Of a stretch of DNA of 64,000 bases, positions 6,595 through 64,000 are shown piece by piece. Source of the stretch: Ehretia macrophylla (Eukaryota; Streptophyta; Magnoliopsida; Boraginales; Ehretiaceae); contig CM075767.1 of NCBI GenBank assembly GCA_037974665.1, positions 88,748,644-88,812,643 on the forward strand, in the 5' to 3' direction. The position numbers and the translations under genes are program-made. Each line of letters opens with the position of its first letter. Position 1 is the stretch's first letter. The notes beneath the pieces are model-generated. The model worked only from the letters and a program-made list of their open reading frames with translations. It was not told the origin of the DNA and did no database searches.

Positions 6595-6713
6595 GGGTGC
6601 GATCATACCAGCACTAATGCACCGGATCCCATCAGAACTCCGAAGTTAAGCGTGCTTGGGCGATACAAATACTAGGTGGGTGACCCCCTTGGAAGTCCTC
6701 GTGTTGCACCCCC
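6595..6713 (+). rRNA. 5S: 5S rRNA gene, copy 10 (one-base C-box deletion)
   Basis: One base shorter than the norm: CTAGGTGGGTG replaces CTAGGATGGGTG in the C-box. GCGATACAAATAC also alters the intermediate element. It is probably a pseudogene copy. Confidence 0.86.
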
Positions 6714-7173
6714 TTTTCAATTTTTTTTGCCCTGGTTGGGGTTGCCAAGATACTTTATCCCCCAAATCTTTATTACTGAATCCCACAAACCGAGGGAGTA
6801 GGGTTTGTGACCAGGTCTCCTTCGCTCCGGTGCCCATAACTTTTGATCTGTAATGGGTTACACGGTGCACAACATACCGTTGCAAAGCTCTCTGAGAGCT
6901 CTACGACGGGGGCAGCCAGCTTGCTCGTTGTGCCTGTTTTTGGAGACCAAAATCGAAAGTTTTCATAAGTTTCAGGTCACTTTTGTTCTTTTGCTCTATT
7001 TTTCCGTCCCGGATCGTACGTCGTGAGCTGTTAAAAGGAAGTCAAGCTGACTCGCAGGATATCAGAGGGCCCTACAACGTGTCGATATCACGTCTTGCGA
7101 GGATGCTGCGTTGTTGAAGTGGATGGGTTGTCGTTAAGCCCATTGGGCTTTTTGAATGGGCCATCTCTCTAGG

Positions 7174-7178
7174 CTGGG
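7174..7178. repeat. Target-site duplication, left copy
   Basis: CTGGG directly before the TGTCACG end of the inserted element. The same five bases occur at 12053-12057 after the other end. An uninterrupted spacer reads AGGCTGGGACTGTGAACC, with a single CTGGG. Confidence 0.88.
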
Positions 7179-9471
7179 TGTCACGCCCCGACCCAACCCC
7201 GCAAAAGGCCAAGCCCGGACCCGACACACGGACGGAGTCTCCTCTGTACCGCGGACGATCCGAAAACCCTAAAAACAATATAATACTTGCGAAAGCTATA
7301 AAATAATCAAAACAAGTCAACTTTCTATAAAACATACATTTCTTATTATCCAACTTTCCAAACCAAAAATGATATGCATACTACACAAGTACATATGCCA
7401 CTAAACCATTAGCCATTAGCATGCATTTCTTCACTAGTCATCAGGGTACAAGTTACAACATTACAACTTTATTCCATTACAACATAAGACCATTAAAGGT
7501 CTCAAAATAGGAAAATACATACAAGGCTACAAGCCTCAAAATTAAGCGTCCTTCACGCAATATACATAACAACAAGGTTTGCACAAAACTGGTAACCAAC
7601 CACCAGCAAAGCAGGTAAGTGCTATCACGGAAACACCTCCACCTGCTCCTTCTCCTCAATTACCTCGAGAGGGTCTGCCTCAACTACTCCTGTAAAAACA
7701 TAGTATAGAGAGGAATGAGCAAAAACTATTGCTCAGCGAGGGCAATTGGTCTCAAGGACGGAGATGAGAGGAGTATGCACGGCAATTAGCCAAGCAATAC
7801 ATACAAAACATATAAAGATACATCCAAATCCAACAATAAAGCAAGGCAAGTATTTAAAGCTGCAAACACTCAATCAAAGGATATAATAGTCTTTTCACGA
7901 CCCACTTTCAAACACGAATTCGATGACGACGCTCCGGCCCAAAACCACCTTATAACACCAGTTTGGAATACTCCGGAAGTATCCATCAATCCTACGACCC
8001 AAATCTCCCTGGGAGGCAACCCAAGCGAGAAAGGGAATAGCAACGGAGCTAGAGCAACCAACACTAGCAACCCAAGGCTACCCAGAGAGGCCCATCACTC
8101 ACGCGCGAGACACTATGCAATGCAAGACTCGATACAAGACAGTAAACAAGCGATAAACAAGCGATAAAGCCACACGTGGGAGAATAACAAAGTAGGTTAC
8201 TCTCGCACGCAATAGCAGCAATTTGATAAGCAATTCAATCCAAAACAACTCAAACAAGTAATTCAAGTAATTCTAAGCATTCTATAAGCATAAAGACAAG
8301 TAAACACACAAAAACACAAATCGGCCCCAACTATCAAAATGCTACCATTTCCAAACGAGCCACGAGTTCTGGAAACCGACTTCGCCAACCCTCCTAGGTC
8401 ACCATAAGGCACGTCTAAAGACCCCAAAACCTTACTTTACCATAGAACTCGCGCAAAGCCCCGATTTCCCCCTTTCTCGTTTGAAATACAACTACAACAA
8501 CCACACACCCACCCACCGCCATAATCGCACCAAAAGTGCTTCCATGGCTTCCCGAAGCAATGCCAACACGCAAAACGAGGAAATGCAAAAGTCGACCGAA
8601 ACGACCCCGACTTTCCCAAAGGCTTAATTTTCATTTTTTCCTCTACGCAACCCAAACAAACCACACATTTTAGCATTCTAGCATACCTAGCACGTTTCTA
8701 CATCAACGGAAAGCATAACAGCGCAACTTCAACGTTTCAAGGTTTTACTATTCACAAAACACTATTCATTCCACAATTCAAGTTGCAATCACAACATTTA
8801 ACCGCAGAAAATGTTACAAAGCCATAAATACATGTTCTACAAATGCTAAGGAACATTCTAGAAGCATCAAATCGCTTTAAATAACGATCTACGGATAAAT
8901 CTAAAAATTGACAAAGTTAACTAACACAACGTATAAATGTGCGAATAACATGCTTCCCTCACCTTAGGTACTCCTAGTCGCTAGGAAAACAACGTTGGTT
9001 GCCTCGGAAATCACCCCGCACGAGCACACGCGAAGATTGATCGTATAGAAGTTGAAAGGTTTTTTTTTTTTCTCTAAGGAAGCTCACGACCTGCTGCTGG
9101 TTTTGCTGCTGTTTTTATTTTATTTTGCTTAGTTTTAACTTATTTAAGGGTCAAATGGTCAAAGGGTCAAAGGGCTAAGTCAAACTACTAAAAAACTTGG
9201 TCAAAGGGCCCTATTTCGCGCGTTTTAAAGCCGTTTCAGCTAAGGTAAGTTCAATTAAAGTTAGCAACAATTAAAATATAAAATTTAAGTCGTCTAAATA
9301 CTAGTTTCACTATTTGCTGAGGACTGGAACTCGTTATCTAGCTATCGCTCCTTAAATGCAATGCACGTTGCGTCGGCGAGAAAGTAACAGTTAATTCACA
9401 AAGAATTTAAGGAAATATAATTTTCAAAATAATAAACAAAGAAAATTCACATTCCGGGCTCGGGTATTACA
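7179..9471 (-). repeat. Ty3/gypsy 3' LTR (2,293 bp)
   Basis: On the minus strand the LTR begins TGTAATACCCGAGCCCGG at 9471 and ends GGGGCGTGACA at 7179. A polypurine tract lies immediately upstream, which fixes it as the 3' LTR of a minus-strand element. The stretch is AT-rich with no credible gene; minus-strand frames at 7072-7353, 7477-7659, 7870-8070 and 8437-8676 are short and unsupported. A T run lies at about 9060-9072. Blocks such as CTCAGCGAGGGCAA and CTACGACCCAAATCTCC resemble blocks in the second element's LTR (48.5-48.9 kb), indicating related families. Confidence 0.88.
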
Positions 9472-9486
9472 CCCTCTCCCCCTTAA
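9472..9486 (-). other. Gypsy polypurine tract
   Basis: Minus strand TTAAGGGGGAGAGGG, immediately before the LTR start TGTAATACCC. Polypurine tracts prime plus-strand cDNA in LTR elements. The integrase stop codon (TAA, 9483-9485) overlaps its beginning. Confidence 0.9.
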
Positions 9487-10703
9487 AACAATTGCGCCCA
9501 TGCAATTCTTACCTGGTCAACAAACAACTCCGGATACTGATCCCGAACTTGGTCCTCTCTTTCCCAAGTCGCTTCCTCAAACCCATGATGATTCCACAGA
9601 ACCTTTACTAACGGAATACTCTTCCTGCGAAGCTCCTGAATCTTCCGATCCACAATTCTAATCGGTTTCTCTTCATAAGACAACTTCTCTTCAATCTGCA
9701 AAGGCTCTGGTTCAAGTACATGTGAAGGGTCTGGATGATACTTCTTCAACATAGACACGTGGAACACATCGTGCAGTCTCGACAAGCTCGGAGGCAAAGC
9801 TAATCGATAAGCCAAAGGACCTACCTTTTCGGTGATCTCATACGGACCCACATACCTGGGACTAAGCTTCCCACTCTTACCGTGCCGAATCAATCCCTTC
9901 CGTGGAGAAATCTTAAGAAACACCCAATCTCCCAAATCAAACTTAAGATCCCGACGGTGCTTATCCGCATAACTCTTCTGACGACTCTGAGCTGTAAGCA
10001 TACGCTGGCGAATAAGGTGAACATTATCTACCATCTTAATCATCTCAGGTAACACAGTCGGATCAACTGTTCTCATCTCTCCAACCTCTTCCCAATATAA
10101 TGGGGATCTGCATTTCCGACCATACAACGCCTCGTAGGGAGCCATACCTATAGTAGATTGATAACTATTGTTGTAGGCGAACTCCGCTAAAGGCAAAAAC
10201 TTCTCCCAATTCTTCCCAAAGTCAAGCACACATGCCCGAAGCATGTCTTCCAAGATCCTGATGGTTCTCTCAGACTGGCCATCAGTTTGCGGATGATATG
10301 CAGTACTGAAGCTCAACTTAGTTCCCATGGCCTCTTGCAACTTCTGCCAAAAACGAGATCTGAATCTGGGATCCCTATCTGACACTATACTCTGTGGTAC
10401 TCCATGCAATCTCACAATATTAGCAACATACAATTCAGCTAGCTTATCAAGGCTATCCTGTTTGTTCACGGGAATAAAATGTGTAACTTTAGTCAAGCGG
10501 TCCACAACAACCCAAACAGAATCACATCCTCTCGGAGATCTAGGAAGATCGGTCACAAGGTCCATTGTTATATGTACCCACTTCCATTGCGGAATCGACA
10601 ACGGCTGTAGAAGTCCGGCTAGCCTTTGATGCTCAACTTTAACCCTCTGACAAGTCAAACATCTGGATACATACCTAGCAATCTCCCTCTTCATTTTGTT
10701 CCA
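9483..10703 (-). pseudogene. Gypsy integrase with C-terminal chromodomain-like region (pol fragment)
   Basis: Integrase inserts the element's cDNA into chromosomes. Counting from the methionine at 10694, the catalytic D,D(35)E triad is D45 (in MDLVTDLP), D106 (in VSDRDPRF) and E142 (in DGQSERT). The zinc-binding CLTC pair is near residue 13, and the two histidines are in the upstream fragment. A GPY/F-type module (YVGPYEI) lies near residues 280-290, and a chromodomain-like tail (IQELRRKSIPLVKVLW...EEATWE) near 345-385, as in plant chromoviruses. The reading frame is open to the TAA at 9483, but a TGA at 10704-10706 cuts it from upstream pol, so the methionine is not a true start. The lineage (perhaps Tekay/Del) is a guess from overall appearance. 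Confidence 0.93.
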
Positions 10704-11069
10704 TCAGAAGTGTTCGTTCAAATCTCTATACATTTTAGTACTGCCCGGGTGAATCGTGTACCTCGAATTATGTGCCTCGGACAGGATCTCATTCTTCAAA
10801 GTCGGATCATCAGGAACACATACTCTATCCCTGAATCTGAAAATGCCATCTGCCTGTAATTTAAACTCCGACTCTTCCCCTTTAGCTTTCTCTTGGATCT
10901 TCAAGATGTGAGGATCAGTCTTCTGAGCCTCTCTGATCTGTGCTAGCAATCCTGACTGAATCTGTAAACTAGCAAACCGAATCCCTACCTCAGTAGCTTC
11001 TGGTTTCCATGAACAAATTTCTTCCAAAGTCTCCCAGTCCTTGATAATCAAGCTTGCAACAGTAGCCTT
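10704..11069 (-). pseudogene. Gypsy pol fragment: RNase H-integrase linker and HHCC zinc-finger start
   Basis: About 120 residues between two in-frame TGA codons (11070-11072 and 10704-10706). The last part, EILSEAHNSRYTIHPGSTKM, carries the two histidines of the integrase HHCC zinc finger; its cysteines are in the next fragment. The frame is the same as both neighbours, so only the two nonsense changes break pol here. The residue lost at 10704-10706 lies in HF-stop-WNKM, where tryptophan is usual in gypsy elements; a TGG to TGA change would explain it. Confidence 0.88.
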
Positions 11070-11549
11070 TCAGCTCAAAGCATCAGCAACAACATTTGCC
11101 TTACCTGGCACATAGTTAATAGAACAGTTATAACCACCCAATAGCTCTAGCCATCTCCGCTGCCTCATATTTAGATCCTTCTGTGAAAACAAATACTTGA
11201 GACTCTTGTGGTCGGTAAATATTTCAAATCTGCAACCCCACAAGTAGTGATGCCACTTCTTCAAAGCAAACACAACTGCAGCTAACTCAAGATCATGTGT
11301 AGGGTAATTGACTTCATAAGGTTTCAATTTCCTAGAAGCATAGGCAATCACCTTACCATTCTGCATTAAAACACAGCCCAATCCTTCTTTAGATGCATCA
11401 CTGTAGACAACGAAGTTCTCTGTTCCTTCAGGTAAAGCTAGTATAGGAGCTGTAGTTAGTCTCTTCTTCAATTCTTGGAAACTGGATTCACATTTAGCAT
11501 CGCAGTTGTAAGCAACTTTCTTCCGAGTCAACTGGCTCAAAGGTCCCGA
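11070..11549 (-). pseudogene. Gypsy RNase H domain (pol fragment, truncated by TRIM junction)
   Basis: RNase H degrades the RNA strand of the RNA-DNA hybrid during reverse transcription. Counting from the codon at 11540, the acidic residues are D48 (VYSDAS), E85 ([14 protein letters not shown]), D110 (FTDHKSL) and D153 (VVADALS). The fragment begins inside the connection between reverse transcriptase and RNase H ([10 protein letters not shown]) and is cut at about 11549 by TRIM sequence, so the polymerase domain is missing. It ends at TGA (11070-11072), directly after ADALS; an arginine CGA to TGA change would explain this. Confidence 0.9.
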
Positions 11550-11755
11550 AATTCCACATCAAAAAATTAGGAAGTGGTACAGCTGGTTATAAAGGTTCAA
11601 GTCCTTGTAACAGCCATAAGGCCTTTTCACGTGGGAGACCACGTGGAGAACAAAACCGTGAGAGTATTGGTTCCCTTCGGGGCTTGCTCAAAGCGGACAA
11701 TATTATGGTAGTGACGTGACTCGTGCCCGTGATAAACCGTGGCGGGTGCGTTACA
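11550..11755 (+). repeat. TRIM left LTR, 5' truncated
   Basis: Matches the right LTR from its twelfth base to the GGGTGCGTTACA end. The expected TGTGGTAACAC start is replaced by gypsy sequence. Confidence 0.9.
11575..11604 (+). promoter_or_regulatory. Pol III-like A and B boxes in TRIM left LTR
   Basis: TGGTACAGCTGG (11575-11586) fits the tRNA A-box pattern TRGYNNAGYNGG, and GGTTCAAGTCC (11594-11604) fits the B-box pattern GGTTCRANTCC. They are only 7 bases apart, far closer than in a normal tRNA gene, so function is uncertain. Confidence 0.4.
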
Positions 11756-11757
11756 AA

Positions 11758-11769
11758 TGGTATCAGAGC
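11758..11769 (+). other. TRIM primer-binding site (tRNA-iMet)
   Basis: TGGTATCAGAGC, two bases after the left LTR. This is the classic plant primer site complementary to the 3' end of initiator methionine tRNA. Confidence 0.93.
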
Positions 11770-11822
11770 CTACTGGGGTGACCCGGCGTTGTGACGTTAG
11801 CCCGCGAGGGCGCATGCCTCTT

Positions 11823-11835
11823 AAGGGGGGTGGAG
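11823..11835 (+). other. TRIM polypurine tract
   Basis: AAGGGGGGTGGAG immediately upstream of the right LTR start TGTGGTAACAC. It contains one T, as tolerated in these tracts. Confidence 0.85.
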
Positions 11836-12052
11836 TGTGGTAACACAATCCCACATCGAAAAATTAGGAAGTGGTACAGCTGGTTATAAAGGTTCAAGTC
11901 CTTGTAACAGCCATAAGGCCTTTTCACGTGGGAGACCACGTGGAGAACAAAACCGTGAGAGTATTGGTTCCCTTCGGGGCTAGCTCAAAGCGGATAATAT
12001 TATGGTAGTGACGTGACTCGTGCCCATGATAAACCATGGCGGGTGCGTTACA
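11836..12052 (+). repeat. TRIM right LTR (217 bp)
   Basis: Runs from TGTGGTAACACAATCCC to GGGTGCGTTACA and is complete with TG/CA termini. The same A-box (11872-11883) and B-box (11891-11901) matches as in the left LTR are present. Confidence 0.92.
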
Positions 12053-12057
12053 CTGGG
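12053..12057. repeat. Target-site duplication, right copy
   Basis: CTGGG directly after the TRIM right end, matching 7174-7178. The interrupted spacer continues as ACTGTGAACC. Confidence 0.88.
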
Positions 12058-12102
12058 ACTGTGAACCGTTAACACATAAAGGAATTGTGCCCTCTACATG
12101 AC

Positions 12103-16157: not shown

Positions 16158-16276
16158 GGTTGCGATCATACCAGCACTAATGCACCAGATCCCATCAGAA
16201 CTCCGAAGTTAAGCATGCTTGGGCGAGACTAATACTAGGATGGTGACCCCCTTGGAAGTCCTCGTGTTGCACCCCC
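16158..16276 (+). rRNA. 5S: 5S rRNA gene, copy 17 (C-box deletion)
   Basis: One base short: CTAGGATGGTGACC lacks a G in the C-box. Starts GGTTGCG, has AAGCATGC, and shares GAGACTAATAC with copies 4 and 7. Confidence 0.87.
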
Positions 16277-47788: not shown

Positions 47789-47882
47789 TTTTCAATTTTT
47801 TTTGCCCTGGTTAGGGTTGCCAAGATACTTTATCTACCAAATCTCTATTACTGAATCCCATGGAACATTGGACAAGACAACT

Positions 47883-50800
47883 TGTCATGCCTCAACCCGG
47901 CCTATGAAGATTTTAACACTTAACGTTTTGGCCTAAACTCAAAATTTTTTTAAAAAATCGACAGTATAATGGCTGTAATTGGGCTATTTGGTTTGACCTA
48001 ATTCTCTAAACGCCTCAATTATTCCAATCATTAACCCAATTCCATTAATGACTACTATTTGTCACCAACCAATTTGCCTACTAGTTTATCTTGAAGGTCT
48101 TGTTTGGTTAATAAGCCTAACATGATAACTATGTCCCGTTTATTTGTCAATTTCCTATCATTCAAGTACCTATTATCCTTTAGTTTGCAAGTGAGCACCT
48201 AAGTGAAATTAGATAGAATTAACTTAGTTGATTGTTCATGTAGTGGTTTGAATGCCTACGATAACTACCAATTAAGAAACGAAAGCAAACCACCAAATAA
48301 AAGTTCGTCCAACTATAGGTAGTACAATCCCAGAATTAGACCCAAATTACAACGGGGTTATTTACATCAATAAAATGAATAGTTTGTAATCAAACACAAC
48401 ATCCATATAGCAACCACTTTCAGGCAAAGCACAAAAGCACGTAGGGACAGGCAATCACTCCAAGGAATCATCGATAGGCACGTTGTCCTCAGGTACCTGT
48501 ACCTGTTCTTCTTCACCTGTGATAAAAAGAGGGTGAGTCCTTATGAACTCAGCGAGGGTGAATGAGAAATACGTTTTGAAGCTCATTTTTTGGTTTAATT
48601 TATGAAAACTCTTTTTGAAAACATTTCACGTATTACAAATAATAAGGTATGAAAATATATGAAACAAATCGAGTAACAGATACATTTACCAATCATTTCA
48701 AGGATACGGTGAGCAGTTGCTCACAATTTCGATTTCGATACAATTGTTGCGGCCGACTTCAATAATCCACTTATCGCTCCCAATTGGGTGTACTCTGGAT
48801 GTACCCCGAAACCTACGACCCAACTCTCCGAGGGTGAAATGCCAAGCGAGAGAGCGAATTGGACCATGGTAGTCACGGGAGCACCGACAAGCCCTATGCC
48901 GCCCCTCGTTCGTGAAATGCTACCATGCCACAATGAAAGGTTGCAACCTCGTATGCAATGCACATTTATAACATTTAACATATCACATTAGGAGGACAAC
49001 AAAGTAGGTCACCTCCGAACAGTTATAAGGTCGCACGTTGTCAAGTAGTCAAACAAGGCACGATAAGACAAGTAATTTCACTTGAAAGGCATATAGAGCC
49101 ATATGAACATTAAACGGGCAACCATGTAACACATGTAAGTCAAGCCATATAAACCATTTTGAAGTCCACGTAATCAAGTGATACGATAATTCAACATGCA
49201 ACAACATCTATGTGGGTTCAGATGCAAGAAAAGCCTATTTGTCAACATGCAATGAACAAAATTACATTTAAGCTTATAAGGGCAACTACGGGCAGCCTAC
49301 TAAACATATAATTCCACACAATATTCAAATGATCAACACTTAGCAAAACTACCTAGTCATTAGGGTTTCCATTTCGTGCATATTTGTGCAATTTGAGCCT
49401 CAACCAAACTCAAAGTCAATCTCAAACCATGCATCATATAATTCAACATCCTCAAGTACTCAAAACAGTCCACACAATATCTCAACACCACAATTCCAAG
49501 CAATTAACACCACAAGAGAGGTTACAATAATTGTTTCTAAGTACAACATTAAGTGAAACCCTTGCTGCAATAGGCTTTTTTCTCACAATCAATAGGATAA
49601 CCAAACAATCTCCAAATCCCATGAATAAGATTTCAAATTAAATCTTAAGAAGTTAACTAAAATCAGAAACAAACCTTGCATCAATTGGAGTTCGGAATCA
49701 TTAGATATAGCCGAAACACTGGAATAGCACAAAACTGTCCAGATTTGCACACTTTTCAGTAATTGACGTTTTTGAGATCCTTAGGGTCCAATTGAGCCTT
49801 GGTCCATTTCTGACAAAATTGTCCGGAACTGAAAAATCTCAAATATGGTTCATTCCACAAGGTCAGTGCATCTGCCAAACCCTGCTTCATTTTTCCAGAT
49901 TTCCAGATTTGGACACATTTTAAAGATTTGCCAGTTTGAGGACCTTATAGTCAAACTTAGCTTCGGCCTATTTCTGGGAAAAATGTTCAAAACTGTCCAA
50001 ACTAGTCACCTACCAATTTTCATGCATTTTAAACATCATTTTCCTATCTAAACTTACCTCGAAACAGACTGGTCAGAGAGCTGTCAACAATCCGACTTCA
50101 CCTAGCATCACTTTCAAGCCAAGATCTTGCCATGCATGGTTTTTTGAGCTTATGAACGACCATATAAATCAAGTACAGAAGCAAAGACATACATTCATGA
50201 GCATGCATGTGAATTTTTGAAGGATTTTCAAAAGGTTTTAGCCCTCACCTTAGCAATCAACCCAAAAGATGCACAAAAACTTGTTGAAGCTCAAATCTCT
50301 TCTTCTTCTTGCTTAGCCGAGATTCCAACTTGGTTTTCTCTATTTTTCCTAGCCTAGTGATCAATCTCTTAGTACATTCATGTGGTTAGAACAAGAAGAA
50401 AAGAAATGGAAGCTTAAAAACTCACCAAGGCCGAAAATGGTGACTCAAAATGCTTGCATGTGTGTTTCTTGCATCCTAGCTTGCTTGGGTGAGTTTCTTT
50501 GCTTGTTGTTTGTCTTGATGCACCATAGGATGATGAAGATGAGCTAAGGGATGAAGAAACTCAGCCCAAAACCGAGATGGAGAGAGAGAATGAGAGGGAG
50601 AGAGAGAAGGTTGAGGAAGAAAGAAGAAATGACAAAAAAAATGAAAGCCTTTGCATCCTTTAAGCATGTGGTTGGCCTTGGGCCATTAAATTCTGATTTT
50701 TGTGTCTTCAATGTGTGATTTTAAAATGTTTATCATGGGCAAGGGTGGTTTGGTTGAGCAAGGTAGAGGATTTAGGTGGTTTTGAGCATTTTTTGATGCA

Positions 50801-51212
50801 TTGTGCTAAATGTTTGTCATAGTTTGTCTAGGAATAATTCTTTATGCATTTGTCATTAGAATTGTGATAGGAATGTTGGGAAATTAGGGAATCTAGGTTG
50901 GATAAAATATAGGAATGTTTGTTGATGAGTTAAATGATGAATAAAATAATAGAAAGTGGAAAATGTAGGAGTAGTTTAGTACTATTTTATTGTTAGTGGA
51001 GTTTGTAGAGAATTTGAATTAGGAATATAATATTGGTTAGTGGATTGTGTATGATTATTTTAGTGTCTAGTGCTTTGTGTAGGATTCTTTCTTGATTAAC
51101 GTGGTGGAACGGATTCCTAGATCTAGGGCACGAATTACGAGGTAGACACAAACTACGAGATAAGACACGAACTTCAAGACTAATGCACGTAATTCAAGAC
51201 ACGACTCTTAAA
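47883..51212 (-). mobile_element. Truncated gypsy-type 3' LTR (copy 1)
   Basis: Starts TGTCATGCCTCAACCCGG on the + strand, immediately after ACAAGACAACT of a 5S spacer, and matches the LTR at 55560-59140. It stops at CACGACTCTTAAA, where 5S spacer resumes (TGGGCCATCTCTC) with an AA overlap, so about 270 bases of the full LTR are missing. It is AT-rich with no credible gene; minus-strand frame 48721-48981 is preserved in the other copy only because the copies are recent. An (AG)-rich run lies at 50574-50611. Confidence 0.85.
50574..50611. repeat. AG-rich microsatellite in LTR copy 1
   Basis: GAGATGGAGAGAGAGAATG followed by AGGGAGAGAGAGAAGG. The same run is at 58252-58288 in copy 2. Confidence 0.8.
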
Positions 51213-51289
51213 TGGGCCATCTCTCTAGGCTGGGACTGTGAACCGTTAACACATATAGGAATTGTGCCCTCAACATGACGGGTGCGATC

Positions 51290-55465: not shown

Positions 55466-58251
55466 TTTTCAATTTTTTTTGCCCTGGTTAGGGTTGCCAA
55501 TATACTTTATCTACCAAATCTCTATTACTGAATCCCATGGAACATTGGACAAGACAACTTGTCATGCCTCAACCCGGCCTATGAAGATTTTAACACTTAA
55601 CGTTTTGGCCTAAACTCAAAATTTTTTTAAAAAATCGACAGTATAATGGATGTAATTGGGCTATTTGGTTTGACCTAATTCTCTAAACGCCTCAATTATT
55701 CCAATCATTAACCCAATTCCATTAATGACTACTATTTGTCACCAACCAATTTGCCTACTAGTTTATCTTGAAGGTCTTGTTTGGTTAATAAGCCTAACAT
55801 GATAACTATGTCCCGTTTATTTGTCAATTTCCTATCATTCAAGTACCTATTATCCTTTAGTTTGCAAGTGAGCACCTAAGTGAAATTAGATAGAATTAAC
55901 TTAGTTGATTGTTCATGTAGTGGTTTGAATGCCTACGATAACTACCAATTAAGAAACGAAAGCAAACCACCAAATAAAAGTTCGTCCAACTATAGGTAGT
56001 ACAATCCCAGAATTAGACCCAAATTACAACGGGGTTATTTACATCAATAAAATGAATAGTTTGTAATCAAACACAACATCCATATAGCAACCACTTTCAG
56101 GAAAAGCACAAAAGCACGTAGGGACAGGCAATCACTCCAAGGAATCATCGATAGGCACGTTGTCCTCAGGTACCTGTACCTGTTCTTCTTCACCTGTGAT
56201 AAAAAGAGGGTGAGTCCTTATGAACTCAGCGAGGGTGAATGAGAAATACGTTTTGAAGCTCATTTTTTGGTTTAATTTATGAAAACTCTTTTTGAAAACA
56301 TGTCACGTATTACAAATAATAAGGTACGCAAATATATGAAACAAATCGAGTAACAGATACATTTACCAATCATTTCAAGGATACGGTGAGCAGTTGATCA
56401 CAATTTCGATTTCGATACAATTGTTGCGGCCGACTTCAATAATCCACTTATCGCTCCCAATTGGGTGTACTCTGGATGTACCCCGAAACCTACGACCCAA
56501 CTCTCCGAGGGTGGAATGCCAAGCGAGAGAGGGAATTGGACCATGGTAGTCACGGGAGCACCGGTAAGCCCTATGCCGCCCCTCGTTCGTGAAACGCTAC
56601 CATGCCACAATGAAAGGTTGCAACCTCGTATGCAATGCACATTTATAACATTTAACATATCACATTAGGAGGACAACAAAGTAGGTCACCTCCGAACAGT
56701 TATAAGGTCGCACGTTGTCAAGTAGTCAAACAAGGCACGATAAGACAAGTAATTTCACTTGAAAGGCATATAGAGCCATATGAACATTAAACGGGCAACC
56801 ATGTAACACATGTAAGTCAAGCCATATAAACCATTTTGAAGTCCACGTAATCAAGTGATACGATAATTCAACATGCAACAACATCTATGTGGGTTCAGAT
56901 GCAAGAAAAGCCTATTTGTCAACATGCAATGAACAAAATTACATTTAAGCTTATAAGGGCAACTACGGGCAGCCTACTAAACATATAATTCCACACAATA
57001 TTCAAATGATCAACACTTAGCAAAACTACCTAGTCATTAGGGTTTCCATTTCGTGCATATTTGTGCAATTTGAGCCTCAACCAAACTCAAAGTCAATCTC
57101 AAACCATGCATCATATAATTCAACATCCTCAAGTACTCAAAACAGTCCACACAATATCTCAACACCACAATTCCAAGCAATTAACACCACAAGAGAGGTT
57201 ACAATAATTGTTTCTAAGTACAACATTAAGTGAAACCCTTGCTGCAATAGGCTTTTTTCTCACAATCAATAGGATAACCAAACAATCTCCAAATCCCATG
57301 AATAAGATTTCAAATTAAATCTTAAGAAGTTAACTAAAATCAGAAACAAACCTTGCATCAATTGGAGTTCGGAATCATTTGATATAGCCGAAACACTGGA
57401 ATAGCACATAACAGTCCAGATTTGCACACTTTTCACTAATTGACGGTTTTGCGGTTCTTAAGGTCAGATTTAGCCTTGGTCCATTTCTGACAAAATTGTC
57501 CAGAATTGAAAAATCTCAAATATGGTTCATTCCACAAGGTCAGTGCATCTGCCAAAACCTGCTTCATTTTTCCACATTTCCAGATTTGGACACATTTTAA
57601 ATATTTGCCAGTTTGAGGACCTTAGAGTCAAAATTAGCTTCAGCCTATTTCTGGGAAAAATGTTCAAAACTGTCCAAACTAGTCACCTACCAATTTCCAT
57701 TCATTTTAAACATCATTTTCCTAGATAAACTTACCTCGAAACAGATTGGTCAAAGAGCTGTCAACAATCCAACTTCACCTAGCATCACTTTCAAGCCAAG
57801 ATCTTGCCATGCATGGTTGTTTAAGCTTATAAACGACCATATAACTCAAGTACAGAGAAAAGACATACATTCATGAGCATGCATGTGAATTTTTGAAGGA
57901 TTTTCAAAAGGTTTTAGCCCTCACCTTAGCAATCAACCCAAAAGATGCACAAAAACTTGTTGAAGCTCAAATCTCTTCTTCTTCTTGCTTAGCCGAGATT
58001 CCAACTTGGTTTTCTCTATTTTTCCTAGCCTAGTGATCAATCTCTTAGTACATTCATGTGGTTAGAACAAGAAGAAAAGAAATGGAAGCTTAAAAACTCA
58101 CCAAGGCCGAAAATGGTGACTCAAAATGCTTGCATGTGTGTTTCTTGCATCGTAGCTTGCTTGGGTGAGTTTCTTTGCTTGTTGTTTGTCTTGATGCACC
58201 ATAGGATGATGAAGATGAGCTAAGGGATGAAGAAACTCAGCCCAAAACCGA

Positions 58252-58288
58252 GATGGAGAGAGAGAATGAGAGGGAGAGAGAGAAGGTT
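58252..58288. repeat. AG-rich microsatellite in LTR copy 2
   Basis: Same position in the LTR and almost the same sequence as 50574-50611. Confidence 0.8.
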
Positions 58289-58789
58289 GAGGAAGAAAGA
58301 AGAAATGACAAAAAAATGAAAGCCTTTGCATCCTTTAAGCATGTGGTTGGCCTTGGGCCATTAAATTCTGATTTTTGTGTCTCCAATGTGTGATTTTAAA
58401 ATGTTTAGCATGGGAAAGGGTTGTTTGGTTGAGCAAGGTAGAGGATTTAGGTGGTTTTGAACATTTTTTATGCATTGTGCTAAGTGTTTGTCATAGTTTG
58501 TCTAGGAATAATTCTTTATGCATTTGTGTCAATAGAATTGTCATAGGAATGTTGGGAAATTAGGGAATCTAGGTAGAATAAAATATAAGAATGTTTGTTG
58601 ATGAGTTGAATTATGAATAGAATAATAGAAAGTGGAAAATGTAGGAGTATTTAGTACTATTTTATTGTTAGTAGAGTTTGTAGAGAATTTGAATTAGGAA
58701 TATAATATTGGTTAGTGGATTGTGTATGATTATTTTAGTGTCTAGTGCTTTGTGTAGGATTCTTTCTTGATTAACGTGGTGGCACGGAT

Positions 58790-59125
58790 TCCTAGATCTA
58801 GGGCACGAATTACGAGGTAGACACAAACTTCAAGACTAATGCACGTAATTCAAGACACGACTCTTAAACCTAGGTTAAAGCACGCAGTTCAAGGTTAATG
58901 CACACGAAACGAAGAGACACACGCAATTCAAAGTCTCGTACGTAAATTAAGGTCATGGCATGTTTATCTAGGTATCGAACGTATATCGAGGATTAGGGCA
59001 CACAATTCTAGGTTAAGGCACGTATAACGAGGCATGCACAAAAATCTAGACAAGGCATGTAATCCAAGGTCAGTCATATAATTTTAGGTCTAAGGCACGC
59101 AAATCGAGGTAGGACACGTTATTTG
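58790..59125. repeat. Degenerate minisatellite at LTR end
   Basis: Loosely repeated blocks of about 20-30 bases of the form GGCACG(C)AATTC(A)AGGTTA, for example around 58800, 58865, 58985 and 59090. Copy 1 of the LTR has one extra block near 51140-51165, showing length instability. Confidence 0.65.
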
Positions 59126-59140
59126 GGGTCGGGCCTCACA

Positions 59141-59155
59141 TCCTCCCCTCCTTAA
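59141..59155 (-). other. LARD-like element polypurine tract
   Basis: Minus strand TTAAGGAGGGGAGGA directly before the LTR start TGTGAGGCCC. Confidence 0.88.
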
Positions 59156-62032
59156 AAGAATTTCGTCCCAAAATTCATTCTTACCTGTTAAGGTCATTTA
59201 GGTGGATTCCGACCATTGTTATTTTCCCACTCTGGGTCGTCCTTTGCTCTGTGATCTCTCTTACCACAACGAATTCACTTCCTAGCTTTCTCCAATCATT
59301 TAATTCGGTGTGACCTTTACATTTACAGTTTGTTCCTTTGAACGACTCTATTCTCCATTTGATCTTAAGGTCAAGTTCATTAACTAAGGTTAGAGTCTTA
59401 AAACATAGTCATAGAAGTTGGATTGGTATTCTAACAATAGAACTATAACTCCAAAATCATGGCTCATGTTGTATCAATCTCGCATTCCTACCTCAAAAGG
59501 AATATCACAATGATACTGCGATCTTATGGTTACATACACTAATTTCAAGTTGATAGGTCTATATCAGATTTATATATTCTATCAACTACCTTCAAAATTG
59601 TTAACACCTAGGACATACACATGTTATGGGTCATTTCCACAATACGACTCTATTTTCAAGAAGAACTCACCAATAAACTAATCCATCTCAAGTCGTCATC
59701 TATCGGTAGTATCATAGTTTTTATCTTGAAGGTACATTGGATTAGTAAATCTTCTAATGAATAGTCTCCCGATTATAGGCTCCTATTCACTAATCTCCTT
59801 TCCCGGCTTTGTTAACCTTCACGCTCGTAATCAACGAGAAAGACTATTGAGATTTGTTAAACTCAAACTCTAAGTTTTATTAGGTACCACCAACAACTGC
59901 CATTGAAATTGCATGGGTAAACTGAGCATGTCGCACTAGTTCAACTCTTACAAGTAAATTCATCAACTCATAATCCACAATTTATTTCCTAATTCAAATC
60001 CTTATCTTCAAGTCACGAGGCTTTAGAATTTCTTTAATCTTAACCAAGACTCCTAAGGCGAATAGTTTCAATCTCAAATAAATTTCACTCACCTCAATCC
60101 AAGGTTACGTCATACTTAAGAAGATAATGGTCCTATTCACTTAGCGACCTAGTCATCCCTTCGAACACTTAATGCCCGCCAATATATCTCCAACATTAAT
60201 GTTACTAAGCTGGGTTTATAGCCATGTAAGTGATATCAATTCTCTACTAGGTTACCGGTTGTACAACAACAATCCTAGGACTATAATTGGGTACCGAAAT
60301 GATCTAGCTCATAAGATACTAGCCATACTAATCCAAGTAGCTTATTACACAAAATAGCTTCAAGGCTGTGTCAATCATAAGAATTATAACCACAAGGCAT
60401 CCTTCAATATAATTTAATAGAACTTTAAAAGTAATCAACCACTTATTTAACTGTCACTGCAAGATTCACCCCTCTTATTCAACGACCACAATTCGAAGTC
60501 TACCGATTGCTAGTTTCTAGATGTGAAACGATGTACATAAATACAGTGGTCTAACAATAGTCTCTTGGGTCATTATGACTCTAATTCATCTCTATCTTAA
60601 CTCTATGAAATCTTACTCTTCTCATTTATATGTTCAACTAGCTAAGAGCGTCAAGACTCATCAACCTTAGGTCCTAGGGTTCACTATGAATCATCATGCA
60701 TACTCACTATTAGCTATTTAGGATTACTAATCATACCCTAACGACTCCACTTTGTAACCGAATGCTTTAATCTCATTTTCATGGTTTATATATTAGGTCC
60801 ATTGGTATTACTTAGGGATATATGCTTCTTAACATCCTCTACGGTATCCAAATAACGAGTGCATAGATTGACTTACTTGCATATTTACAACTAAACCCAA
60901 GAGGCACCAAATTAATACCACGATTCTAAATATCACCGATATCCAACTTAGGACCTTTAGCAACGTTAGTCATCTAATGCACAATTCAATTCCTTACACT
61001 TCTATCTGACCTAACATTTTAGGTGCAGTTTTCCAAACACGAGTTCTAGCTACATGAATTCCTCGATTCCAACATTCCTATACCGTGTTATACAAAAGAA
61101 TCATCAACCTTGTTAAACTCAGTCTCTAGAGTTACCTACATGTCTTGAGGTTATCCATTGTTAAGTTCTTAAACACATTATTCCCGCCTTAATAATCTAA
61201 CCCCTATTGTCCATTTCCATGAGTTCATCTCTTAATTTCTAGGTCACAATCTTACCATTGAGTGAACTTGAAACTCGTTAATATACACATTATTAGGTTC
61301 AACGATGCTTAATTCCAATCAAGTAAGGATTCAATCATATAATTAGTCTATTATACCATTTTAAGATATAAGAATTTGATTCAAAAGCAACTCCTAAGTC
61401 AAACTTCCATTATAAGCATGTGAACATATATATACTACTCCACATCTCCAATAGTATATTCTTATATCTAAGGAAAGTTGTATGTCCTTAACATTTATTC
61501 TTGAACCACAATTAGAAGAACGGTTTAACGGAATTAAGAACTTTATAGCTATAAAATTGATAACTTAATCACAGGCATGTGTATTCCAAAGATAAAGAGA
61601 TAATTTTACCTCAACAATTATACCTGTGCTACGCATTTTATATATATGCATATCCAATAAGATATATGATCCATTGAGCACCTGTGAAGATGTGAGAAAT
61701 CTCTAACCGAGCCTTTCGTTCGTCCGGCACAAATTCACTTCCCTGAAAGTCCTAATCCTAACTACCTATGTGTATAAACAGTCATTCACAGTTATATAAC
61801 ATGCACATATATCAAGGAAGGAGTATAAAAGCATGCATGCATTATTGAGGACGTGTCGGTGTGCATGATACATAATACATATGGTCCACAAAGGCACATA
61901 ATATTCAATACTTAAAGCAATTAAAGCACATTAGCACATATTAACACATATAAACAAGACATCATAATTACCTTAGGGCTTCTACCCATGGTCCGAGAGT
62001 TGAACCCGACTAACGCCTAGTTACTAAACTAA
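59156..62032 (-). other. LARD-like internal region, no recognisable coding sequence
   Basis: About 2.9 kb of AT-rich sequence with no open frame beyond ~61 codons and no gag, protease, RT or integrase motif that I can recognise. Its first ~200 bases (59156-59350) may be a decayed remnant of the integrase tail, but I cannot show this by eye. Confidence 0.65.
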
Positions 62033-62044
62033 GCTCTGATACCA
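62033..62044 (-). other. LARD-like element primer-binding site (tRNA-iMet)
   Basis: Minus strand TGGTATCAGAGC, 13 bases after the 5' LTR end (GTGACA, then CCTTATATTAGAA). It is complementary to plant initiator methionine tRNA, the same primer as used by the TRIM at 11758. Confidence 0.92.
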
Positions 62045-62057
62045 TTCTAATATAAGG

Positions 62058-62951
62058 TGTCACGCCCCAACCCGGCCTATAAGGTTAGACTAGGGTGTGA
62101 ACTAAACATTCAGGTAATATCACATACTTAACTATTTATGAAGATTTAACACTTAACGTTTTGGCCTAAACTCGAAATTTTTTTGAAAAACCGGCAGCAT
62201 AATGGCTGTAATTGGGCTCTTTGGTTTGACCTAATTCTCTAAATGCCTCAATTATTCTAATCATTAACCCAATTCCATTAAGGACTCCTATTTGTCACCA
62301 ACCGATTTGCCTACTAGTTTATCTTGAAGGTCTTGTTTGGTTAATAAGCCTAACATGATAACTATGTCCCATTTATTTGTCAATTTCCTATCATGCAAGT
62401 ACCTATTATCGTTTAGTTTACAAGTGAGCACCTAAGTGAAATTAGATAGAATTAACTTAGTTGATTGTTCATCTAGTGATTTGAATGCCTACGATAACTA
62501 CCAATTAAGAAACGAAAGAAAACCACCAAATAAAAGTTCGTCCGGCTATAGGTAGTACAATCCAAGAATTAGACCCAAATTACAACGGGGTCATTTACAT
62601 AAATAAAATGAATAGTTTGCAATCAAACACAACATCCATATAGCAACCACTTTCAGGCAAAGCACAAAAGCACGTAGGGATAGGCAATCACTCCAAGGAA
62701 TCATCGATAGGCACGTTGTCCTTGGGTACCTGTACCTGTTCTTCTTCACCTGTGATAAAAAGAGGGTGAGTCCTTATGAACTCAGCGAGGGGGAACGAGA
62801 AATACGTTTTGAAACTCATTTTCCAGTTCAATTTATGAAAACTCTTTTTGAAAACATGTCACGTATTACAAATAATAAGGTACGCAAATATATGAAACAA
62901 ATCGAGTGACAGATACATTTACCAATCATTTCAAGGATACAGTGAGCAGTA
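62058..62951 (-). repeat. LARD-like element 5' LTR, truncated (894 bp)
   Basis: Begins TGTCACGCCCCAACCCGGCC on the + strand and follows the 3' LTR with scattered substitutions plus ~60 extra bases near 62080-62140. It stops at GGTGAGCAGT-like sequence at about 62951, where 5S spacer resumes. Confidence 0.85.
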
Positions 62952-64000
62952 GTAAGTGTTGCGAAGATACTTTATCCACCAAATTTCTGTTACTGAATCC
63001 CACGGAACATTGGGCAAGATAACTTCTCTTCATGTAGAAGCTGGGCCCACAAACCGAGGGCGTAGGGTTTGTGACCAGGTCTCCGTCGCTCCGGTGCCCA
63101 TTACTTTTGATCCGTAAGGAGTTACGCGGCGCACATCATACCGTTGCAATGCTCTCTGAGAACTCTACGAAGGGGGTAACAAGCTTGCTTGCTTTGCCCC
63201 TTTTTGGAGCCCAAAATTGAACATTTTCATCAGTTTCAGGCCACTTTTCTTCTTTTGCTCTATTTTTCCGTCCCGGATCATATGTCGTGAACTGTTAAAA
63301 GGACGACAACCTGACTCGTGGGAGATCAGAGGGCCCGACAACGTGTTGATATCACGTCTTGCGAGGATGCTGCGTTGTTGAAGCGGATGGGTTGTCGTTA
63401 AGCCCATTGGGCCTTTTGAATGGGCCATCTCTCTAGGCTGGGACTGTGAATAGTTAACACATAAAGGAATTGTGCCCTCAACATGATGTGTGCGATCATA
63501 CCAGCACTAATGCACCGGATCCCACCAGGACTTCGATGTTAAACGTGCTTGGACGAGAGTAGTACTAGGATGGGTGACCAGTTGGGAAGTCCTCGTGTTG
63601 TACCCCCCGTTTTGATTTTTTTTTTTGCCCTAGTAAGGGTTGCCAAGATACTTTATCCACCAAATCTCTATTATTGAATCCCAGGGAACATTGGGCACGA
63701 CAACTTCGCTTCACGTAGAGGCTGGGCCCGCAAACCGAGGGCGTAGGGTTTGTGACCATGTTTCCGTCGCTCCGGTACCCATAACTTTTGATCCGTAAGG
63801 AGTTACGCAGCGCACAGCATACCGTTGTAAAGCTCTCTGAGAGCTCTACGACGGGTGCAGCCAGTTTCCTCGCTGTGCCCCATTTTGGAGTCCAAAATCG
63901 AACATTTTCATCAGTTTCAGGCCGCTTTTCTTCTTTTGCTTTGTTTTTCCGTCTCGGATCGTACGTTGTAAACTGTTAAAAGGACGACAACCTGACTAGC
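62952..64000 (+). repeat. 5S rDNA tandem array, block D (one gene, runs off the window)
   Basis: Spacer resumes near GTTGCGAAGATACTTTATCC, roughly 30 bases after where a 5S gene would have ended. It continues through one gene and into the next spacer. Confidence 0.95.
63488..63607 (+). rRNA. 5S: 5S rRNA gene, copy 72
   Basis: GTGTGCG start, CCCACCAGGACTTCGATG, TTAAACGTGCTTGGACG in the A-box, then an intact C-box core and GACCAGTTGGG. The 3' end has six C. Confidence 0.9.

Follow-up and report, generated by a model that had tools for sequence, protein, structure and literature searches.

Purified retroviral integrase can perform two-donor concerted integration in vitro, in which two separate U5 ends are inserted together with formation of a target-site duplication (TSD). 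Template-switching complexes of long terminal repeat (LTR) retrotransposons carry one 5-bp TSD and have been read as one integration of a fused complementary DNA (cDNA) (Sabot and Schulman 2007, PMC1950507); they involve one family in the same orientation, R-region joins, three LTRs and matching outer LTRs (PMC1950507). For the autonomous/non-autonomous gypsy pair RLG_Cereba/RLG_Quinta, the partnership was deduced from primer-binding site (PBS), LTR termini and polypurine tract (PPT), with PBS and termini reported to be identical (PMC11302176), and a survey of plant terminal-repeat retrotransposons in miniature (TRIMs) gives related longer elements, on the basis of sequence similarity, for 11 of 289 subfamilies, the helper usually being unknown (PMC4717578). 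Here, we describe an insertion in Ehretia macrophylla (contig CM075767.1, positions 88,748,644 to 88,812,643; this stretch of 64,000 nucleotides is referred to as the window and its own positions are used throughout) in which a Ty3/gypsy element and an unrelated TRIM are enclosed by one TSD. As in two-donor concerted integration, two U5 ends and a TSD are involved, there in vitro and here deduced from a genomic scar. The insertion is similar to the template-switching complexes in being a complex LTR-element insertion with a single 5-bp TSD and differs from them in that two unrelated families are opposed, with two outer U5 ends and an inner join without LTR homology (PMC1950507). The terms searched retrieved no two-family, two-U5 insertion from the accessible portions of open-licence literature, including PMC9744471 and PMC7215508.

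The window is a plant-like 5S ribosomal DNA array with 72 5S genes identified by Rfam and a unit of ~676 bp, and one 5S unit is broken by a 4,874-bp insert (7179-12052) into a left part (6595-7178, plus strand) and a right part (12053-12102, plus strand). Perfect copies of CTGGG at 7174-7178 and 12053-12057 directly touch the two outer ends of the insert, and in uninterrupted units this site is present once, as TCTCTAGG-CTGGG-ACTGTG or a variant; the closest uninterrupted paralogue, the unit at 16158, has one copy that reads CTGGA. Thus, both the duplication described in the first-pass annotation and the empty site that it proposed to look for in related units are confirmed. The insert is bounded on the left by a gypsy 3' LTR on the minus strand and on the right by a TRIM on the plus strand, in each case with the U5 end facing outward. 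The two elements are therefore oppositely oriented, which agrees with the earlier description of a gypsy end and a TRIM end of opposite orientation in one footprint; the boundaries, PPT and LTRs are refined here.

The gypsy part consists of (i) the 3' LTR (7179-9471, minus strand; TGTAATACCC...GCGTGACA), with its U5 terminus facing outward at 7179 and a match of 94.7-98.6% to the LTRs of four copies elsewhere (L068-L071), (ii) the PPT TTAAGGGGGAGAGGG, which adjoins U3 (9472-9486, minus strand), and (iii) the 3' part of pol (9483-11552, minus strand), with the domains RNase H, integrase and SH3_Tf2-1 and a reading frame that is interrupted by two stops but not shifted. The four copies have an LTR-pol-LTR structure, and their own LTR pairs differ at 3 of 1010, 21 of 1646, 11 of 810 and 4 of 542 positions in the visible stretches. 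RNase H plus integrase, a TG...CA LTR, a PPT and LTR-pol-LTR copies identify the element as a Ty3/gypsy LTR retrotransposon. A second gypsy family is present in the window at ~47880-51216 and ~55567-62953, where one left junction is common to two 5S units, as in a duplicated insert.

The TRIM part comprises a 5' LTR from which the first 11-15 nt of U3 are absent (11550-11755, plus strand; an intact start is found in L009, L010 and L053), an 80-nt internal part (11756-11835, plus strand) and a 217-nt 3' LTR (11836-12052, plus strand) with the U5 terminus GCGTTACA facing outward at 12052. The internal part holds the PBS TGGTATCAGAGC (11758-11769, plus strand), which we take to be of the initiator tRNA-Met type, and the PPT TTAAGGGGGGTGGAG (11821-11835, plus strand). 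Short direct LTRs, a PBS and a PPT, no coding region and a 5-bp TSD identify the element as a TRIM, and in size, PBS, PPT, TSD length and the occurrence of tandem arrays it resembles the plant TRIMs of the survey (PMC4717578). We examined 39 TRIM loci, a sample that leans to close relatives because it was drawn from the best-scored 40 of 1340 candidates. By inspection, 34 of the 39 have their own perfect 5-bp TSD, the exceptions being L009, L060, L061, L065 and L067; together with the four LTR-pol-LTR gypsy copies, this substantiates the assumption in the first-pass annotation that the two elements are real and separate.

A 5S flank is found at 22 of the 39 TRIM loci (L009-L012, L033-L067), at ten distinct sites and never at unit position 627. 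At 12 loci on five contigs (L033-L037, L039, L040, L042, L044, L045, L047, L048) the TSD GCTAT is accompanied by the same adjoining 5S bases, and 5S blocks carrying this TRIM insertion seem to have spread between chromosomes. L009 and L062 are tandem TRIM arrays, and in L062 alternate internal regions are cut down to five bases; serial insertion into one TSD was considered for L062 and rejected, and LTR recombination gives a better fit because the outer TSD reads GTCCC and the AATAG spacers resemble leftovers of an internal region of the TRIM. The right TRIM LTR in the window contains matches to an A box (TGGTACAGCTG at 11872) and a B box (GTTCAAGTC at 11892), the starts of which are 20 nt apart. 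Helenus elements are TRIMs with tRNA-like LTRs and among the plant rows seen occur only in Selaginella (PMC10886601). With its A-box and B-box matches and 5-bp TSD the TRIM in the window is similar to Helenus, a tRNA origin being only a candidate; in contrast to Helenus, the LTR of L041, the one copy tested of a second TRIM subfamily (B), has no B box. ARAGORN found no tRNA in the window, and a TRIM 31-mer had no matches (0) in the viral contigs searched. A relation to Cassandra, in which the LTR is 5S-derived, was rejected given that the Rfam gathering scan gave no 5S match within 7179-12052.

The inner junction between gypsy pol and the TRIM 5' LTR lies at 11549-11553, with an ambiguity of 0-4 nt. 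The gypsy comparison included 20 loci, ten of which, the window and nine copies, are displayed in the direction needed. The nine copies (L014, L015, L017, L018, L020, L022, L026, L028 and L030) read GGTCC[C/A]GAAAT[T/C]TTAG beyond the point where the window switches to TRIM, and we placed the join at 11549-11553 because these copies stay gypsy where the window becomes TRIM; when all 19 gypsy copies are turned to one direction, the match to the window extends to 11552 in each. Hence the join proposed earlier near 11549/11550 is confirmed and slightly refined. In the 1.58-Gb assembly, a 30-base pattern spanning the join matched only the window when as many as three mismatches were allowed, so that the search for other gypsy-TRIM junctions suggested in the first-pass annotation yielded no further copy of this one.

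These observations bear on two explanations that dispense with a shared integration. A misjoin in the assembled tandem array could be suspected given that the array is repetitive, with its 72 5S genes, and that the locus was judged from the assembled sequence; however, the junction is inside the insert, where no repeat is common to both parts, and the neighboring units are in register, and of the explanations considered here we regard this one as the least probable. Alternatively, a full gypsy element at CTGGG may have received a nested TRIM, after which two deletions removed the gypsy sequence to the left of the TRIM and the sequence from the right end of the TRIM to the right end of the gypsy element, the latter possibly by way of the TTACA common to both. 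Gypsy U3 ends read GGTATTACA and TRIM ends GCGTTACA, the last five bases being TTACA in both, and this path is made easier because TTACA ends both gypsy U3 and TRIM U5; moreover, there are precedents for a TRIM nested in gypsy-like sequence in L057 (a related LTR, ~82%) and L049 (a distant relative, ~70%). Nevertheless, nesting requires two deletions, one of them exact to both termini, and the junction has no other copy in the assembly, and we consider this scenario highly unlikely.

The 5S units on either side of the insert provide information about its history. The 69 aligned 5S units, in which the interrupted unit was represented by its flanks joined at one CTGGG, have a mean distance of 12.0%. 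Units 5242, 5918, 6595, 12103 and 12773 pair with units 14804, 15481, 16158, 16834 and 17510, respectively, at distances of 7.8, 5.0, 4.8, 7.2 and 8.5%, and the left flank alone is nearest to unit 16158 (26 of 583 differences). The seven-unit register thus continues through the insert. Three-unit and seven-unit repeat registers are visible near the left end of the array in the window. Insertions in two different units followed by loss of the units between them are disfavored by this continuity, although a loss that matches the repeat register of the array stays compatible with the data.

From the anatomy and TSD of the insert, the register of the units and a junction that occurs once in the assembly, we suggest that gypsy and TRIM, each with one U5 end, were inserted in one concerted integration and that their inner ends were joined by end joining or mutual priming, a reading that we hold to be probable, if not strongly so. 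Gypsy minus-strand cDNA starts at the U5 end and extends through the LTR, the PPT and pol, and the gypsy segment in the insert is what a growing minus-strand cDNA would hold. In this model, integrase would attach the gypsy 3' LTR by its U5 end to one strand of the 5S spacer, and the TRIM 3' LTR would be joined, likewise by its U5 end, to the other strand five bases away, giving rise to the single CTGGG duplication. The inner ends would be those of a gypsy minus-strand cDNA that stopped in pol and of a TRIM cDNA that had stopped a dozen bases before the terminus of U3; these ends may have been joined before integration, by annealing of the two minus-strand 3' ends and fill-in or by end joining, or, alternatively, after integration by host end joining. 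One integration explains every feature of the insert. The TRIM break 11-15 nt from the U3 end is expected of a nearly complete cDNA, whereas breaks placed at random in a 500-bp TRIM would, by simple arithmetic, fall there in ~3% of cases. Classical RNA-to-RNA template switching would leave both elements in one orientation and was rejected because orientation is kept in such switching, while gypsy and TRIM are opposed; for a complex of the kind described by Sabot and Schulman the TSD fits and the orientation and the identity of the outer LTRs do not.

The ages of the two parts are compatible with one event. The gypsy copy in the window has 11 private changes in 2081 columns (0.53%), compared to 0.24-0.91% in the other 19 copies. 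The two TRIM LTRs in the window differ at 6 of 206 sites; compared to 11 other LTRs, the left LTR departs at two of these sites, one of them at the join, and the right LTR at four. At each of the six sites, one of the two agrees with the majority or all of the 11 other LTRs, and thus they fit one reverse transcription. With the junction base left out, the private changes amount to 5 of 412 in the TRIM and 11 of 2081 in gypsy (Fisher p = 0.16), a comparison that is not a strong test.

The main competitor of one concerted integration is that two separate integrations hit one preferred 5-mer, either within a single unit or at the corresponding position of two units, and that a subsequent deletion extended from gypsy pol into the TRIM 5' LTR; here, the TSD would match because the insertion position is shared and recurrent. 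Among random cuts in the array, the 5-mer to the left of one cut equals the 5-mer to the right of another in 385 of 200,000 trials (1 in ~520), and in 41 of 200,000 the two also roughly agree in register. The reuse of insertion positions increases this chance. The left-end pattern CTCTAGGCTGGGTGT has 33 matches, one of which is the window; the other 32 read as three LTR insertions in other 5S arrays, 27 5S variants and two that are unclear or not 5S (L075, L083). The right end also has 33 matches and, apart from the window and L106, the 31 that were read represent seven LTR ends and 24 5S variants. In a gapped scan next to the 5S gene, inserts that end in TCACA are concentrated at a few positions, and of 65 tallied ends eight are at the CTGGG position (seven CTGAG, one CTGGG) and 11 at CCATC and its variants. 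This tally covers 65 of the 100 rows listed among 138 found; the remaining 35 rows (C7, C8, C10) have the appearance of natural 5S variants. Within the tally, 15 ends with a gap of 8 and 12 with a gap of 10 are possibly variants as well, and neighboring rows may reflect one and the same event. The CTGGG site, at 5S unit position ~627, precedes the 5S gene by 45 bp and has LTR insertions from several families; CCATC, 13 bp upstream of CTGGG, is another recurrent insertion position. Possibly, these positions reflect an integration hot spot near a gene transcribed by RNA polymerase III (Pol III).

Several observations weigh against a single event. When the left-end and right-end matches are merged, LTR ends exactly at CTGGG are found at eight other loci (L078, L082, L086, L112, L113, L124, L125 and L138), which may not all be independent events; for five of them (L112, L113, L124, L125 and L138) only the right end was read. 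One of the eight, L078/L106, is a solo LTR that belongs to the gypsy family of the insert, has its orientation and is bordered by CTGGG on either side. On C9 (18792700-18798400; L072 and L055) the order is 5S, a gypsy LTR that faces outward with U3 and has lost the opposite end, GTTAG-TRIM-GTTAG and 5S, so that gypsy and TRIM have targets 1 bp apart in a different 5S unit, with separate TSDs; this locus shows that neighboring insertions happen and favors two insertions. The second gypsy family in the window has, as judged by eye, lost its right end by deletion in both copies, and deletions are thus common in this array. The 45-nt right flank is nearest to units 34140 and 46317 (one difference in 45 each) with unit 16158 outside the best 12, and this short flank does not add support to the unit pairing. 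The rates of private changes are 2.3-fold apart in the direction of an older TRIM, a difference that is not significant. Finally, a comparison of the flanks of the 39 TRIM loci with gypsy gave gypsy-like matches at eight loci, of which five were inspected in more detail, and revealed no second gypsy-TRIM composite.

Given that CTGGG borders LTR insertions at eight other loci, the chance of ~1 in 1,000 that the first-pass annotation assigned to a matching 5-mer is too strong a figure; two independent insertions would share a position in roughly 1 in 680 cases if evenly spread and, by hand extrapolation, still only in ~1 in 130 with clustering. The argument from coincidence for a single integration of an incomplete gypsy cDNA and a TRIM cDNA is thereby weakened, whereas the unique junction, the register and the TRIM break close to U3 speak for such an integration. 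Two integrations followed by a deletion are further opposed by the ten other distinct TRIM sites with a 5S flank, all of which are elsewhere in the unit, by the fact that a random deletion seldom ends within 15 nt of the TRIM end and, for insertions in different units, by the seven-unit register that must also be kept. On balance, we regard this alternative as less probable than a single integration, but as a serious competitor.

If one concerted integration took place, it raises the question of whose integrase was used. The U5 termini GCGTGACA of gypsy and GCGTTACA of the TRIM agree at seven of eight bases, the two PPTs begin alike with TTAAGGGGG in common, and both PBSs contain the 12-mer TGGTATCAGAGC, an initiator-tRNA-type PBS being common in plant LTR elements. 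The U3 termini clearly differ, and the spacing from LTR to PBS is 8 nt in gypsy and 2 nt in the TRIM. The similarities suggest that gypsy may be the helper of the TRIM, as the first-pass annotation had proposed, while the U3 termini and the PBS spacing do not match this idea. Compared to RLG_Cereba/RLG_Quinta, U5 differs at one of eight bases, U3 clearly differs and the LTR-to-PBS spacing is 8 versus 2 nt (PMC11302176); by the features used for that pair, a gypsy-TRIM partnership would be suggestive only (PMC11302176). A mixed intasome, in which gypsy integrase would have used the U5 end of its own unfinished cDNA together with the U5 end of the unrelated TRIM, is a plausible arrangement, if somewhat less likely than not, that we put forward tentatively.

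For most TRIMs it is unknown by which enzymes they are mobilized (PMC4717578), and a composite insertion would be a different kind of evidence than the sequence similarity used in the plant TRIM survey (PMC4717578). In tandem arrays, a matching TSD must be weighed against recurrent insertion positions. A single TSD with a TRIM terminus on one side and the terminus of a coding element on the other would provide physical evidence of one integrase handling both, and such composite scars can be sought systematically. If true, a mixed intasome at this locus would show that gypsy and TRIM were together in one particle or integration complex, and would thereby identify a mobilizer of a TRIM that has promoter boxes of the Pol III type.

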